A DNA stretch of 64,000 nucleotides from Bacteroidales bacterium (GTDB lineage Bacteria; Bacteroidota; Bacteroidia; Bacteroidales; M50B96): NCBI GenBank assembly GCA_021740905.1, contig JAIOYV010000030.1, positions 1 to 64,000 on the forward strand. Reading direction: 5' to 3'. Both the position numbers and the translations under genes were made by a program. Shown here in pieces: positions 24,778 to 64,000 of the stretch (its first letter is position 1; every line of letters begins with the position of its first letter). Under the pieces are notes generated by a model that worked only from the letters and a program-made list of their open reading frames with translations, made no database searches and was not told the origin of the DNA.

Positions 24778-26007
24778 ATGGTATTGATCTATCGGCTATC
24801 GCTTTGGTTTTATGTATTGTTTATCCATCTTGCTTCTTTCAGGAGCGAAAAGGCAAAACAATGGATCGATGGTAGAAAAGGCTGGCAGGATAAGCTTCAG
24901 CATTTCAATCCCGAAAAAGCAAAGGTCGCCTGGTTTCATTGCGCATCGCTTGGCGAATTTGAGCAAGGGAGACCAATCATCGAAGCCTTCAAAAAAGAAA
25001 AACCCGAACACAAAATATTGCTCACTTTCTTCTCTCCCTCGGGATACGAAATCAGAAAAAATTACGAAGGTGCCCACACCATTATATACTTGCCCATTGA
25101 TTCGCCCTCACACGCACGGGAGTTTATTTCGTTAGTTCGGCCCGATGTAGTTTATTTTATCAAATACGAGTTCTGGTATTTTTACATGCGCGAACTTTAT
25201 AAATTGAAAACCCCCGTTTATCTAATTTCGGCCATTTTTCGACCAAATCAAATTTTCTTTAAAAACTATGGAAAATGGTACCGGAAAATATTAGCCTGGT
25301 ACACACACATTTTTGTACAGAACGAAACATCTGCTTCATTGTTGAAGTCAATCGGGATCGAACATCTCAGCATTGCCGGCGATACCCGTTTCGACAGGGT
25401 GGCCTCAATAGCAAAAGCAGCCAGGGATCTTCCAATAATCAGTCAATTCAAAGCCGAACGAAAAATGATTGTAGCTGGTAGCACCTGGCCTCCCGACGAG
25501 GTTTTGTTAGCCAGGTACATCGGCGAAACCAAAAAGGGCATTTGTCTTGTTATTGCCCCGCACGAAATTCACCCTTCCAATGTTGCCCGTATCCAAAAGC
25601 TTTTTGGTGATACAATTTTATATTCCGAAGCTTCTGACATAGATTTATCGAAAGCACGTGTGATGATAATCGACAATATTGGCTTGTTGTCGTCCATTTA
25701 TCAATATGGCGAAATTGCTTATGTGGGTGGGGCATTCAAAACCGGGTTGCACAATGTGTTGGAGCCAGCTTGCTTTTCGATGCCCGTATTATTTGGCCCC
25801 GAATATTCAAAGTTCCAGGAAGCAATCCAATTGGTCGAAATTGGCGCAGCCATCCCGGCAGGAAATTATGAAGAACTAAAAAGCCAACTCAACGGGCTTT
25901 TGTCGAATCCAAAACACCTGACTGAATTATCTATAAAAGCAGGCAAGTTTATCGATGACAACAAAGGGGCAACTGACATGATCCTTGAAAAAACAAGAGA
26001 GCTCTGA
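24778..26007 (+). CDS. waaA: 3-deoxy-D-manno-octulosonic acid transferase
   Basis: A 409-residue GT30 glycosyltransferase that adds Kdo from CMP-Kdo to lipid A precursors at the inner membrane. It has an N-terminal hydrophobic anchor (LSLWFYVLFIHLASF), the conserved WFHCASLGEFEQGRPI with the catalytic Glu, the DVVYFIKYEFWYFYMRELY region, IAGDTRFDRV, and the acceptor/donor lobe motif YVGGAFKTGLHNVLEPACF. The length fits the family. It forms a pair with the preceding outer-membrane gene. A repeat-rich spacer of about 520 bases follows. Confidence 0.93.
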   Translation: MVLIYRLSLWFYVLFIHLASFRSEKAKQWIDGRKGWQDKLQHFNPEKAKVAWFHCASLGEFEQGRPIIEAFKKEKPEHKILLTFFSPSGYEIRKNYEGAHTIIYLPIDSPSHAREFISLVRPDVVYFIKYEFWYFYMRELYKLKTPVYLISAIFRPNQIFFKNYGKWYRKILAWYTHIFVQNETSASLLKSIGIEHLSIAGDTRFDRVASIAKAARDLPIISQFKAERKMIVAGSTWPPDEVLLARYIGETKKGICLVIAPHEIHPSNVARIQKLFGDTILYSEASDIDLSKARVMIIDNIGLLSSIYQYGEIAYVGGAFKTGLHNVLEPACFSMPVLFGPEYSKFQEAIQLVEIGAAIPAGNYEELKSQLNGLLSNPKHLTELSIKAGKFIDDNKGATDMILEKTREL

Positions 26008-26028
26008 GTTGAGGAGTTGAAAAGTTGA

Positions 26029-26236
26029 GGAGTTCTGAGTTGAAAAGTTTAAAGAGGTTGAATGTTCTGAGTTTTTTGTGTTGGGGCATCTGGTATCACA
26101 TTCGCTAAAGTTTCGGGATGCAATTGAACAATTTTCTATATTGAAAACCAGATCGCAAACTTTAATGAAGAACTTCCTGTTCTGAACTTTCGAACTCAGC
26201 ACTTTTCAACTTTCAATCTTTTCAACTCAGAACTCC
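26029..26236. mobile_element. MITE-like inverted repeat block after waaA
   Basis: GGAGTTCTGAGTTGAAAAG at 26029-26047 has a perfect 19-base reverse complement at 26218-26236. Further partial copies of the GAGTT/AACTC motif occur on both sides (26001-26035, 26190-26215, 26240-26265). No coding sequence is seen. It fits a small dispersed palindromic element that has grown by local duplication. Confidence 0.6.
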
Positions 26237-26418
26237 AAACATTTCAACTTTTTAACTCAGAACTCACGCCACCGCTATTTAGACTAAATAAGAATAGGAA
26301 AACATTTTGTGTTTGTAAGTTTTCATAAATATTAAAATGAACATTCTATCAGACATGTTATCATTCACTTACAGATTTGTTGTTAATAAATCGTTTAAGA
26401 ATTCTTGAAATCTCTGCT

Positions 26419-58989: not shown

Positions 58990-59111
58990 CAATATGGTCA
59001 ATTTCCAATGTAAATATGTAATTATTTTGGACATTATCCAACCATGATTTGCAATATTTTTGGACATTTTCCAAGGTTAAATAAGGCTGATTTTGGACAT
59101 TATCCAACCAT
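58990..59111. repeat. Four-copy 33-base-period dyad array before the DUF4143 gene
   Basis: TTTTGGACATTATCCAACCAT at 59025-59045 (21 bases) recurs in variants at 59058 and 59091, and a degenerate fourth copy has its GG at 58996-58997. The GG pair falls at 58996, 59029, 59062 and 59095, an exact 33-base step. Each clear copy has the dyad TTGGA-N5-TCCAA. A small open frame over the array (58964-59176) has an 11-codon rhythm, but that follows from the DNA repeat. Confidence 0.7.
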
Positions 59112-59157: not shown

Positions 59158-59895
59158 TTACGCAAAAATCTCCCATGCTTTTTCGGCCTGATAGCGCAGC
59201 ATTTTTAAACCGTTTAGGGAGGTTGCACCTTGTGCTTTTCCTTTTTTTAGAAAGAGGGTTTCTTCGGGGTTATAAATCAGGTCGACAAGCAAATGCTCCG
59301 GGGTTAGGGCCGAGTAATCGAGGTTTGGTAATCCATCTACATGGGGGAACATGCCCAGGGGTGTTGTATTTATTATGACATGACTATTTTTAACGATTTC
59401 AGAAGATAAATCAGCATACGAAAAAATATCAGTTTGGCTGTATCTCGAAACAAAAGTAAAATCGATCCCAAGTTTTTTCAGCACATAAGCCACGGCCTTT
59501 GATGCTCCCCCGGTTCCTAATATCAAGGCTGAATTGTGTCCAGGGTTCAATTCCGGAGCAATCATTTTCTCAAAGCCAAATACATCGGTGTTAAAACCTT
59601 TGGTGTGGATCTTTTTTCCCTGCCGGGATATTTGGATCGTATTTACGGCCCCTACTTCTTTTGCTGTTTCATCCAGTTCATCAAGGTAAGGGATAATTTC
59701 TTCCTTGTATGGGATCGTGACATTGAGGCCACACAGGGCGGGTTGTGATCGGAGTAGTTTAGGAAATTCAGAAATAGCCTCGATTGGATAATTTTCGTAC
59801 GCGGCATTAATCCTTTCCTTCAAAAACTTTTCGGTGAAATATTTTTTCGAGAAGGAATGACCGAGTGGGTATCCTATGAGGCCGTATTTTTTCAT
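59158..59895 (-). CDS. aroE: Shikimate dehydrogenase
   Basis: Reduces 3-dehydroshikimate to shikimate with NADPH in aromatic amino acid synthesis. The 245-residue protein has GYPLGHSFSKKYF (substrate site, Ser pair), the catalytic Lys in NVTIPYKEEI, the NADP-binding LILGTGGASKAVAYVLKKLG, and INTTPLGMFP. The length is typical for short bacterial AroE. The region upstream is full of hairpin repeats, and a promoter is not obvious there, so it may be read from the DUF5723 operon. Confidence 0.93.
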   Translation of the reverse strand: MKKYGLIGYPLGHSFSKKYFTEKFLKERINAAYENYPIEAISEFPKLLRSQPALCGLNVTIPYKEEIIPYLDELDETAKEVGAVNTIQISRQGKKIHTKGFNTDVFGFEKMIAPELNPGHNSALILGTGGASKAVAYVLKKLGIDFTFVSRYSQTDIFSYADLSSEIVKNSHVIINTTPLGMFPHVDGLPNLDYSALTPEHLLVDLIYNPEETLFLKKGKAQGATSLNGLKMLRYQAEKAWEIFA

Positions 59896-59901
59896 TTTAT
59901 T

Positions 59902-60218
59902 ATCACCAAAATAAATTGTGGTGTTGTCTCAACCAATTTACACTTTTACTTCATTACTTTATTTCACCACAATAAATTGTGGTGTTGTCTCAACCAGGAA
60001 ACCTTTACCATTGATCCTAAATCACCACAATAAATTGTGGTGTTGACTCAACCAAGCACCTTCCACCGCTGATCCTGAAATCACCACATTGAAATGTGGT
60101 GTTGTCTCAACCAAGAAACCTTTACCATTGATCCTAAATCACCACATTGAAATGTGGTGTTGTCTCAACCAGGAACTGTCAAATCCCCTTGAGACATCAC
60201 CCGAATTTATTCGGGTAG
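59902..60218. repeat. Six-unit hairpin repeat array upstream of aroE
   Basis: Six units start (CACC) at 59904, 59965, 60023, 60082, 60140 and 60198, 58-61 bases apart. Each contains a perfect or near-perfect hairpin CACC-N5...N5-GGTG, usually followed by TTGnnnCAACCA and a loosely conserved tail. Stem interiors are ACAAT/ATTGT (units 2-3), ACATT/AATGT (units 4-5) and CGAAT/ATTCG (unit 6, whose last stem pair is imperfect); unit 1 has one mismatch. There is no coding sequence. The spacing is not that of CRISPR, and the repeats are not identical. Confidence 0.75.
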
Positions 60219-60287
60219 TTTCGTAGGTTTACCAGGTGGTTTTGCCGTGTAGTTTTGCTACGGTGCTTGTACCTAATGTGCCTCGTG

Positions 60288-61694
60288 TTAGTTTGCCTTT
60301 GTGCGTCCAAACAAAAAGGCCATCCCAAAACGGAAATCCAAATTCTGGCTGGTGGCTGGCCACAGGGTGTTGAGCTTGGGGTCGTACTTTATGCCCAGGA
60401 TATTGTCGGTGATAAGGTGCAACTGCCAAGGGCCAAGATTGAAGGCAAACCCCAATCCCAGGTTGGCACTGCCCGAACCAAACATGGTGAAAGTACCAGA
60501 CATGCTGACAAAACGGCTTAGTTGGGCATTTCCCGAAATGCCATAAGCCATATACAGTTTGTCGTTGTAGTATTTCCCGTTCAGTATAAGCCCTGCATCG
60601 AGCCAGGTGTTTACAGCATAGTCCCCTGCGAGGAAAAACCGGGGGCCAATCTTGGTTTTATAACTTTCCTGTGTCGACTTTATGGCAAAGGCATCGCTAA
60701 TTGTATCGATCAATCTTTCCCACAAATGATCGGGATCATCGGCTCCGTCGGGTACAATATAAGGTGTTAGGTCAACTCCTTCCAGGGTAAACACGGTGTC
60801 CTGGCTAAAATTCAACACATTGCTTTGCCATTTAATATGGCTAAACAAGTCAATAACGCTAGCCGACAGGGTGATTTTTTCATTATAGTTATACACTGCC
60901 CCCAGGTCGAAGCCCAAACCACGGTTTTTGTTTCCAAAAAAGAAATCGGAAGCCGACAAATCCTGCTCTGTGAGGTCGTGCAGTTTTTCAGGATCTTGAT
61001 CGTCGAATTCGGCAGTAAGTGGTATGGAGGCATTCATTCTAATATTTGAATGAAGATCCCAGATGTAAGTATCTTCGTAAGTATAAATGCCCATGTCCCA
61101 GCTTTGGGTGTCGAAATTTACCATACCACGCAAAAATTTAAGTTTTGCCCCAACTTTTAGATTGTCCATAAGCTGGTAATTGTATCCGAAGGAATACTCG
61201 AAATAGTTCGATGCCTGAAGTTTAAGACCACTAAAATCGGCCATTTTGCCAATGTGATCTTTGTTGCCGTTCCAAAGAAAATAGAGAAGGTCCTTGGGCA
61301 AAGAAATTCCAGTGGTTGTTTTGTTGCTGATATCAAAAGTGATAAAACCTTTGCCAATCCCGTACCCCAGGCTAATGGGCGAGTACCGTAAATCGAAACC
61401 AAAACTATTGTTGCGCGATAGGACATCTTCGAGATGATCGGTATTTTCGAGCACTTCGAGTATTTTCATGCCCCGGTTCTCGTAGCCCAGGTTTATGGAC
61501 GATAGTCCGGGGAATCCAAAATAAAATTTACAATCGGGAGTAAGGGCGGGGTTTACAAGATGCCTGTCGCTAAGGCTGTGCAGGTTGTACATGGTAAGTT
61601 CCTGGGATAAACACACAGTACCGAACATCACCAAAAAGGATATGCCCAACAATATCTTATTTAATGTGCCCTTTATGCATTCTAAAGTTTTCAT
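60288..61694 (-). CDS. DUF5723 outer-membrane protein
   Basis: A 468-residue exported barrel-like protein. The signal peptide is long (to about 31, FLVMFGTVCLSQE), followed by the family N-terminus NLHSLSDRHLVNPAL and many beta segments with alternating aromatic residues. DUF5723 proteins are common in Bacteroidota; function is unknown, and a role with T9SS substrates or surface assembly is only a guess. It is 19 bases behind the large lipoprotein gene, so they form an operon. Confidence 0.8.
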   Translation of the reverse strand: MKTLECIKGTLNKILLGISFLVMFGTVCLSQELTMYNLHSLSDRHLVNPALTPDCKFYFGFPGLSSINLGYENRGMKILEVLENTDHLEDVLSRNNSFGFDLRYSPISLGYGIGKGFITFDISNKTTTGISLPKDLLYFLWNGNKDHIGKMADFSGLKLQASNYFEYSFGYNYQLMDNLKVGAKLKFLRGMVNFDTQSWDMGIYTYEDTYIWDLHSNIRMNASIPLTAEFDDQDPEKLHDLTEQDLSASDFFFGNKNRGLGFDLGAVYNYNEKITLSASVIDLFSHIKWQSNVLNFSQDTVFTLEGVDLTPYIVPDGADDPDHLWERLIDTISDAFAIKSTQESYKTKIGPRFFLAGDYAVNTWLDAGLILNGKYYNDKLYMAYGISGNAQLSRFVSMSGTFTMFGSGSANLGLGFAFNLGPWQLHLITDNILGIKYDPKLNTLWPATSQNLDFRFGMAFLFGRTKAN

Positions 61695-61713: not shown

Positions 61714-63801
61714 TTAATTAATATCGTACGAATAGTTCACCAATATCCCCACCCGAACATCGAGGGTATAGTCTGAATAAAAAACAGCTTCACCAGTAGA
61801 ACTTGAAGACGTATTCACAAGAGCCTTAAGAATAATCTTATTGGCATTTTTCAAACTATTAAAACGATCTGTATCCATTTCAATTTTGCTGACTTTTGTT
61901 ACCGTTGAAGTAACTTTCCCATTAGCATCCACTGGCGCAGCTTCCAATAAATCGATCAAATAGGTATCGAAAACCTGGAAATTTGTCGTGTCCACAAAAT
62001 CGAGTTGAAGCGAGGTCTCGAAGGGGATCCCATTCACCGCCACAATTGACAAGTGGCCACCAAAAGCATCTTCTACCAAATTATCGTCGATGCTGAAATC
62101 AACCGTATCGACAAATTGAAGATTTTGAATACTGAACGATAGAGGCAGTTCAAACTCAAGCCCGATGTTTACCCTGCCATCCGAAGTCACAAAATTGGAG
62201 TACACAACACCGGTGTTGACCGAATCGGGATTAGTCACAACGCCACCCCCCATCACCATACGATCGGGAAATACCGATAAAAATTCGGAAAGCTGAGAGT
62301 TGGAATTGTCGATTGTAACTATCTCTCCAATAATTTCCTCACCGGGATTAAACGGATAGGGAAAATGGAAGGGATCGGCCAATAATGATTGGGATAACCC
62401 TTCGTTGGTGCGGTTGATCAGATCGACAGAAAAATCGACAGGCAGCCCTATGTTATTATCAACGATAAGGTGAAACATGGGGTCGGCAAGGTAGATAGAA
62501 CCTGAGATATTGGCCAGCTCCGAAAAATTAAAATCTACGGTATCCGGCCCGACTGACAGTTCCTTCACTCCTATCCATCCTTGCACGAGGTCGAACGAGA
62601 AAGAGTCAATCTCGTATTTCAATATTACCGTTAAGGACGAATCGAATTCAACCCAGGTATCCGATCCTGCCAATTGAAGGCTTAAAACAACTGGCAAAAA
62701 ATTATAAGGTTGAAGGGGATTTGTGGTCAGATCGAAAATGGAATTTGATAGATCGAGGCTACCGGAAGATCCTTGACTGGCATCGAACTGAAACGAAAAG
62801 GGGACCCCATTTTGGGTAACCGCTGGCAATTCGAGAGAAAGAGAGGCATCGAGGTCGATAAAGGATTCCACGGAATAATGCAAGGATGCTTGATTTAAAG
62901 CAACAAGAGTAAGCCGTTCGTTGCCCTCTGCGCTTAATTCTGTACTATCCACCACACCATCAAGATCCTGGGCTGGAATTTTCCCTTTTCCGGCAATCAC
63001 TTTCACTCCATACGAATTCAGTTCAAAGTAAATACCATCACTTAAATTGACAAGAACAGGTCCTGCGCTGGCATACGTTTCAAAGCTATTAAGGATGATC
63101 ATGAAATCGTTATATAAAGTTAGCCCGGCCAGTGGAATGGAATCGATCTGCACAATTCCTGGTTCAAGATTAGTAAAAGTGAAAACCCCCACCAGAGTGG
63201 AATCACCCATCGGGTCGATTGTATAAAGCGAAGTTGGGGCCGAGGCAAAAGTAACAGGGATATTGTTTTTGGCACCCAATATCAGCCAGCCATCGGAAAA
63301 CGTAACATACTCGAATTCTTCGAAATCATCGAAATCAAAACGTTTTTCATAGGTCGACACAATAGCCGGTAAATTGTTTGTAGTGCCATCCAAAGCCTGA
63401 ATAGCGGCAGCGTCGGCTGTGTCGATCACGGTAGTAAGATCGTCTAAGCTGGCCACTGCGGTAATTGGCCCAAAATTATTCAAGGCTATTTCGCCTAACT
63501 TATACTTAAATACTTCCTCCTCCTGATTGGGAATCTCGAATAAATCATCGACAGAATAGCTCAATATCGAATCTTCGCGGTAGATAAAACTGATACTTCC
63601 ATCCTGTCCAACCGCAAAGTTTGGATCGTCATCAGGGATCAAATCGGCCAGGCTCAGTTGAGCATGTGCAAGGGCTACTGCAAGCCCTGGTTCGTAGGTA
63701 AGGGCAACAGGTTCGATTTCTTTTTTACAATTTGTAAAGATAAATAGAAGCACCAAAAGTATCGGGTAGTGCTTTCCGAAAACATGCCGAAGTTTTTTCA
63801 T
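61714..63801 (-). CDS. Large lipoprotein of unknown function
   Basis: A 695-residue protein with lipobox LFIFTNC (Cys25) after a basic N-terminus, so it should be anchored in a membrane. The rest is rich in beta segments with no recognised domain; D-rich turns such as DDDPNFAVGQDGSI recur. The Lys-Lys after the lipid Cys is common in outer-membrane lipoproteins of the phylum, which may allow surface exposure. It is the first gene of the two-gene operon with the DUF5723 protein. Hairpin repeats lie just upstream at 63838-64000. Confidence 0.7.
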   Translation of the reverse strand: MKKLRHVFGKHYPILLVLLFIFTNCKKEIEPVALTYEPGLAVALAHAQLSLADLIPDDDPNFAVGQDGSISFIYREDSILSYSVDDLFEIPNQEEEVFKYKLGEIALNNFGPITAVASLDDLTTVIDTADAAAIQALDGTTNNLPAIVSTYEKRFDFDDFEEFEYVTFSDGWLILGAKNNIPVTFASAPTSLYTIDPMGDSTLVGVFTFTNLEPGIVQIDSIPLAGLTLYNDFMIILNSFETYASAGPVLVNLSDGIYFELNSYGVKVIAGKGKIPAQDLDGVVDSTELSAEGNERLTLVALNQASLHYSVESFIDLDASLSLELPAVTQNGVPFSFQFDASQGSSGSLDLSNSIFDLTTNPLQPYNFLPVVLSLQLAGSDTWVEFDSSLTVILKYEIDSFSFDLVQGWIGVKELSVGPDTVDFNFSELANISGSIYLADPMFHLIVDNNIGLPVDFSVDLINRTNEGLSQSLLADPFHFPYPFNPGEEIIGEIVTIDNSNSQLSEFLSVFPDRMVMGGGVVTNPDSVNTGVVYSNFVTSDGRVNIGLEFELPLSFSIQNLQFVDTVDFSIDDNLVEDAFGGHLSIVAVNGIPFETSLQLDFVDTTNFQVFDTYLIDLLEAAPVDANGKVTSTVTKVSKIEMDTDRFNSLKNANKIILKALVNTSSSSTGEAVFYSDYTLDVRVGILVNYSYDIN

Positions 63802-63837
63802 ATTTAAGATTTTTAATAACTAGTATCACCTCCATAA

Positions 63838-64000
63838 TATCACCACAATAATTTGTGGTGTTGATCCAACCATAGAACCTCTTACATTGAGGTGTCACCC
63901 GAATAAATTCGGGTGGTTGTGCCGAGCAATGTTGCTTCAACCAAGTAACTCCCTGCGTTGAGGTATCACCCGAATTTATTCGAGTGAGGTGTGCCAAACC
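63838..64000. repeat. Three more hairpin repeat units at the window end
   Basis: Units start at 63841, 63896 and 63967. The stems are CACCACAA/TTGTGGTG, CACCCGAAT/ATTCGGGTG and a slightly imperfect CACCCGAAT/ATTCGAGTG. The first is followed by TTGATCCAACCA and the second by a longer variant ending CAACCA. They belong to the same family as the array at 59902-60218 and sit upstream of the lipoprotein gene, possibly continuing past the window. Confidence 0.7.

Follow-up and report, generated by a model that had tools for sequence, protein, structure and literature searches.

The hairpin array between the DUF5723 gene and aroE in this 64,000-nucleotide window (contig C70, bases 1-64000; Bacteroidota genome of 6.54 Mb in 160 contigs) is very probably a BIME-like cluster of REP-like elements served by a single-copy TnpA encoded on another contig, C52 (a REPtron). 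The best-known REPs and domesticated REP transposases are those of Gammaproteobacteria, where the hairpins carry a GTAG tag. In the present genome the elements are dispersed, have compensated stems, a fixed foot, a TTNA loop and a 5' tag, and flank tnpA on both sides; across genomes, hairpin type co-varies with TnpA type. We infer mobility and cleavage, and the elements were probably moved or amplified by the C52 TnpA acting on folded single-stranded DNA.

Tandem Repeats Finder identified a tandem array at 59902-60175 (period 58, score 326), and five tandem units were placed at 59900-60173 with spacings of 61, 58, 59 and 58 nt, so the array described in an earlier note on this DNA is real. That note had counted six units with a CACC...GGTG frame; five have it, whereas the sixth hairpin, at 60184-60221, lies in the opposite orientation. 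The sixth (60198-60217, CACCCGAATTTATTCGGGTA) ends in GGTA, not GGTG, and has no downstream tail; its tag, CTTGAG, lies on the other side, and it is therefore the same element, inverted. Read on the minus strand, a tandem unit is GGTTGAG-NNNN-CACC-N4-TTNA-N4'-GGTG, and TTGnnTCAACCA is present in all five. The stem is CACCACAAT/ATTGTGGTG (ACAAT/ATTGT) in units 1-3, with a single mismatch in unit 1 (CACCAAAAT), and CACCACATT/AATGTGGTG (ACATT/AATGT) in units 4-5; stem position 8 thus changes from A:T to T:A on both sides between the two groups, as the note had observed. Two subtypes were distinguished, A with linker NCAA/NCAG and B with linker NTAT and often the stem CCGAAT. The features, with covariance model (CM) scores, are as follows.

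59900-59937, minus strand: unit 1, type A, tag GGTTGAGACAA plus hairpin at 59904-59923 with one mismatch (54.6 bits)
59961-59998, minus strand: unit 2, type A, hairpin at 59965-59984, CACCACAATTTATTGTGGTG (58.6 bits)
60019-60056, minus strand: unit 3, type A, hairpin at 60023-60042 (62 bits)
60078-60115, minus strand: unit 4, type A, compensated stem ACATT/AATGT, loop TTCA, hairpin at 60082-60101 (60 bits)
60136-60173, minus strand: unit 5, type A, compensated stem, hairpin at 60140-60159 (58.6 bits)
60184-60221, plus strand: inverted unit, type B stem CCGAAT/ATTCGG, tag CTTGAG-ACAT, hairpin at 60198-60217 (36.1 bits)
63837-63874, minus strand: type A unit of a second small cluster (31.4 bits)
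63896-63915, orientation ambiguous: CACCCGAATAAATTCGGGTG hairpin of the second cluster, partial model match
63953-63990, plus strand: type B unit of the second cluster, tag GTTGAGGTAT, hairpin CACCCGAATTTATTCGAGTG with one mismatch (29.5 bits)
59158-59895, minus strand: aroE (shikimate dehydrogenase, PF08501), downstream of the array, context only
60288-61694, minus strand: DUF5723 protein gene (PF18990), upstream of the array, context only

Unit 1 ends 5 nt from the start of aroE, and the type A unit at 63837-63874 precedes the gene at 61714-63801, with 36 nt between the unit and the gene start. A search of the window against Rfam at gathering thresholds gave no match. Single units folded as RNA moderately better than shuffled sequences (z from -0.3 to -4.1), a result that is weak by itself; the strong evidence for a hairpin family is repetition and covariation rather than the folding energy of a single unit.

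A covariance model (R1) built from 29 genome copies retrieved 63 copies from the window's own genome at E<=0.01, with genome-wide counts drawn from a search whose first pass scored 150 candidates per genome. Tag, foot and loop are common to about 60 copies at scattered sites, which upholds the proposal that the units belong to one family, and 56 of 65 copies lie between ORFs. The CACC..GGTG pattern alone was uninformative (1739 matches), and a genome search for the tail found it elsewhere with other stems. The hairpin is 20 nt long with a 9-bp stem. Across 66 copies, 96.4% of cells are paired, a percentage inflated by a model that includes pairing and by seeds partly chosen through a hairpin search, so the count of paired changes is the informative part. 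Among the 29 copies, two-sided changes affect four of the nine pairs and 16 cells, where shuffles give 2.1; the 66 distinct copies contain 31 such cells, compared with 3.8 after shuffling and no more than 6 when the structure is slid. Changes are thus compensated across the genome, in agreement with the earlier idea that the folded hairpin is kept and not the sequence, and independent change of the two arms did not occur in either set. Covariation alone is no proof of selection, because self-templated repair of palindromes also yields two-sided changes. Stem positions 1-4 are nearly fixed, and position 9 together with the loop reads TTNA; at positions 5-8 both arms change (A:T/C:G, C:G/G:C/U:A, A:U/G:C and A:U/U:A/C:G, respectively). 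The 5' tetranucleotide is mainly NCAA/NCAG and NTAT in this genome.

Arrays in the genome have periods of 46, 48, 51 and 58-63. Spacers of separate arrays had no 9-mer in common when compared, which suggests that an array forms when a hairpin is duplicated locally together with its own flank. Types A and B face each other tag to tag in the window, as A(-)x5 B(+), and on C11 and C52, in both cases as B(-)A(+)x3, the C11 group lying between nuoB- and nuoC-like genes; the inverted and tandem arrangement that characterizes BIMEs is present at all three places.

The earlier note had advised looking nearby for a transposase of the IS200/IS605 or RAYT type. None was seen near the array within the window; the cognate gene lies on C52 and is surrounded by hairpins of this family. 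Searching the genome with Pfam Y1_Tnp gave five matches, the best at C52:22236-22577, between spoVR and prkA, with four family hairpins upstream and six downstream. This locus has the layout of a REPtron, a TnpA gene together with cognate REP-like hairpins. The product is a single-copy, IS200-like HUH/Tyr protein of 145 aa that scores 74 bits against Pfam Y1_Tnp and 60.2 bits against NCBIfam IS200 (cut-off 55); against NCBIfam REP_Tyr_transpos (RAYT, NF047646) it reaches 21.6 bits, below the cut-off of 80. PDB entries 2f4f and 2xm3 match at E~1e-4. Its HUH motif is EHVH (E55-H-V-H58) and its Tyr motif YIRTQDKHH (Y116), of which Y, Q and HH are invariant in alignment A4 and near-universal in the homologues read. 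The signature Y---Q--HH, the length and the C-terminal motif would place the enzyme in TnpA_Y1 subclass 1.2, an assignment made on these sequence traits.

Four further, distant Y1_Tnp genes are present in the same genome (L048, C11:6779; L049, C65:42695; L050, C141:35885; L051, C4:35334). Most of them adjoin their own, different palindromic repeats, for example GAACCCTTTCAGGGTTC, CCCCGGCATAAATGCCGGGG and GGATTTGCAATCCGTGCC, which suggests that one genome holds several enzyme/hairpin pairs.

Hairpin and enzyme were compared across relatives. With falling TnpA similarity, the CACC/GGTG foot was found at 13/15, 9/17, 6/58, 2/40 and 0/49 loci. The nearest homologue in the order, in G078, is 53% identical and has CACCACAATTTATTGTGGTG beside its gene. 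Over 38 genomes, the covariance model matched 63 times in the own genome, 17 times in G078 (several on other contigs), 16 times in G097 and one to three times in each of G276, G091, G181 and G192, with no match in the other 31. Five of the matching genomes have a G000-like TnpA (G000, G078, G097, G276 and G091), G181 has a partial TnpA that is 41% identical, and G192 is a sister species of G091. Among these 38 genomes, the hairpin family was confined to those whose TnpAs are closest and to sister species of those genomes. One case counts against the partnership: G002 encodes a TnpA that is 40% identical, yet the model search found no family hairpins there.

These distributions bear on a different reading, in which the hairpins are regulatory RNA leaders upstream of gene starts, bound by a protein or small RNA and defining a regulon, with the proximity to tnpA incidental. 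Type A does tend to precede start codons in the sense orientation, often just upstream (aroE, tnpA, prkA, nuoC), and type B to follow stop codons, just 3' of genes; an exploratory hand tally by locus gave 13/8 against 1/11 for A versus B placement (Fisher p 0.004). About eight type A loci nevertheless point at the 3' ends of genes, the neighboring genes have no obvious common function, and REPs can gain such roles secondarily. Leaders also leave aside that the family occurs only in genomes with close TnpAs or sister species and that homologous tnpA genes elsewhere are flanked on both sides by a matching hairpin type. We consider this reading improbable.

TnpA homologues (E<=1e-15) were present in 158 of the 393 genomes of the order. 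A hairpin common to both flanks was found at 31 of 100 homologue loci and at none of 265 control ORFs (both flanks readable, within 600 nt; controls from 400 kb of the same order). Near the 57 closest loci, 118 of the 139 distinct hairpins had the TTNA loop, compared with 8 of 124 in control DNA, and TTNA hairpins occurred at 50 of the 57 loci; the 81-fold odds ratio beside tnpA homologues overstates significance, as hairpins within one locus are not independent. In a sample of GTDB genomes that partly overlaps the first, TTNA hairpins were found at 67 of 76 loci, and a hairpin was common to both flanks at 30 of 70. Stems differ widely between genomes: among 220 distinct 20-mers, positions 3-7 each have four pair types, with pairing and loop, though not the foot, given by construction, as the 20-mers were chosen as hairpins with a TTNA center. 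The 5' tetranucleotide in other genomes is NYAR.

The loop also bears on the proposal that we are dealing with transcription terminators or other palindromes of a generic kind, whose perfection would be due to template switching and not to recognition. Self-templated repair would account for the two-sided changes, and leaves the fixed tag, foot and TTNA loop unexplained; control DNA lacks the same loop frequency, in contrast to the enrichment beside tnpA homologues. A search of 59700-60400 for intrinsic terminators and sigma-70 promoters found none. We regard this proposal as still less credible than regulatory leaders. A CRISPR array or an integron attC cluster, which the regular 58-61 nt spacing and palindromic ~35-nt repeat might recall, is hardly conceivable: the supposed spacers are near-identical and so contradict CRISPR (those of units 2 and 4 are the same but for one position), solitary hairpins are scattered through the genome, the units have no cassette ORFs, and no integron integrase (TIGR02249) exceeds its cut-off in the genome (best 111 versus 265 bits).

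Several features of the relatives' loci stand apart. At L242-L252, L258, L265, L267 and L272, a second, shorter hairpin type (AACCGCTTCAGCGGTT-like) lies beside the CACC type, often in the order CACC+ AACC+ tnpA AACC- CACC-, like inverted ends; the C52 tnpA locus showed no hairpin of this second type. Close TnpA homologues at L242-L261 come from MAGs labeled Bacteroidota, Marinimicrobia, KSB1, Chlorobiota, Eremiobacterota and SAR324. Matching hairpins accompany most of them, and the spread may reflect either horizontal transfer of the pair or mis-binned contigs. Loci with TnpA below 95 bits (L063-L081, L194-L213) mostly have another hairpin type (odd loops, for example CATAGGGCTTCACCCTATG and GGAGTCCGGCAAGGACTCC) or none, and the TTNA rule therefore marks one clade.

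Under the REPtron reading, TnpA would bind the strand on which the tag precedes the hairpin, at times when that strand is single (as lagging-strand template, for instance), and would read the foot, the TTNA loop and the 5' tetranucleotide, which by analogy with TnpA_REP are likely the recognition features. It may then cut near these through Tyr116, thereby moving or amplifying hairpins. The stem interior would need only to pair, and for that reason would drift by paired changes. Arrays would grow by local duplication of a hairpin and its adjacent spacer; the array in the window would consist of five copies that arose by tandem duplication along with the local spacer, and of a further copy in inverted orientation. 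The nearest relatives compared belong to other genera of the family.

The TnpA_REP enzymes of Escherichia coli, Stenotrophomonas maltophilia and Marinomonas bind the strand with the tag in its folded, single-stranded form and use their Tyr to cleave; in vitro, REP_Mb requires the T, T and A of its TTNA loop, and the motif helps to choose the cleavage site (PMC8266576). We compared the present system with REP/BIME elements and their TnpA_REP (RAYT) enzymes (groups 2.2 and 2.5, E. coli, Stenotrophomonas and Marinomonas; PMC6006769, PMC8266576). It resembles them in having a short palindrome with a 5' motif, intergenic dispersal, tandem and inverted clusters and a flanking single-copy HUH/Tyr gene, and it shares with group-3 REP_Mb a perfect stem and a TTNA loop. 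Two defining REP traits are present, a palindrome of 20-65 nt able to fold as a single-stranded hairpin and many dispersed, mainly extragenic copies; the third, GT[AG]G at the 5' foot of the hairpin, is absent, and its place is taken by NYAR with a GTTGAG tag. The elements are therefore named REP-like and not canonical REPs. Both the tetranucleotide and the copy number, about 60 and below typical REP numbers, speak against the REPtron reading. The enzyme differs from RAYTs in its signature, Y---Q--HH in place of YI--NP, and in its REP_Tyr_transpos score below the cut-off.

TnpA_Y1 subclass 1.2 has been described as low-copy, with signature Y---Q--HH, occurring in Cyanobacteria and Bacteroidetes and scored "no" for REPs (Quentin et al. 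2018, PMC6006769). The present system shares the signature, the length of ~145-150 aa, the low copy number and the occurrence in Bacteroidota. It departs from the subclass as published, without REPs or terminal hairpins, in that most close homologues here have hairpins; the reported absence is a published description, not a defining trait. The enzyme itself has EHVH and WS where the subclass consensus has DH[IV]H and WQ. IS200/IS605 elements (subclass 1.1) have a related TnpA and recognize subterminal hairpins with a 5' guide; here, unlike there, tnpA is present in a single copy with no TnpB seen beside it, and the hairpins, many times more numerous than the gene, are arranged in arrays. Subclass 2.6 TnpAs ("atypical secondary structures", Bacteroidetes; PMC6006769) are similar in occurring in Bacteroidota with non-GTAG hairpins copied elsewhere in the genome, and differ in enzyme signature (NH[LIV]H, YIH[QN]NP; PMC6006769).

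Our best reading is that these are REP-like elements of a previously unrecognized REPtron type; the literature covered was open access, and an earlier description in a subscription paper is possible. We lean toward the broader view that subclass 1.2 TnpA_Y1 constitutes a large, multi-phylum REPtron class with a simple recognition code: a TTNA loop, a clade-specific foot, an NYAR-type guide and a free but paired stem interior. If so, enzyme and hairpin foot diversified together, and the TTNA loop is either shared with group-3 REPs or arose twice. The present data document the partnership known from REPs for an enzyme class that a survey had recorded as lacking them, both within Bacteroidota and in genomes placed in several other phyla, and they explain one class of palindromic repeats between the genes of these genomes. 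More than 100 natural enzyme/hairpin pairs, whose stems differ widely while the loop is constant, make recognition of folded single-stranded DNA directly testable through swaps of loop, foot and guide.

Other repeats were seen in the window. Three 33-bp repeats at 59004-59108 (core TTTTGGACATTATCCAA, containing the imperfect short palindrome TTGGACATTATCCAA) lie just upstream of an AAA_14/DUF4143 gene, and two small tandem arrays of 30-31 bp at 25997-26264, GAGAGTTCTGAGTTGAAAAGTTGAAAG and AACTTTTCAACTCAGAACTTCC, are apparently reverse complements of each other.
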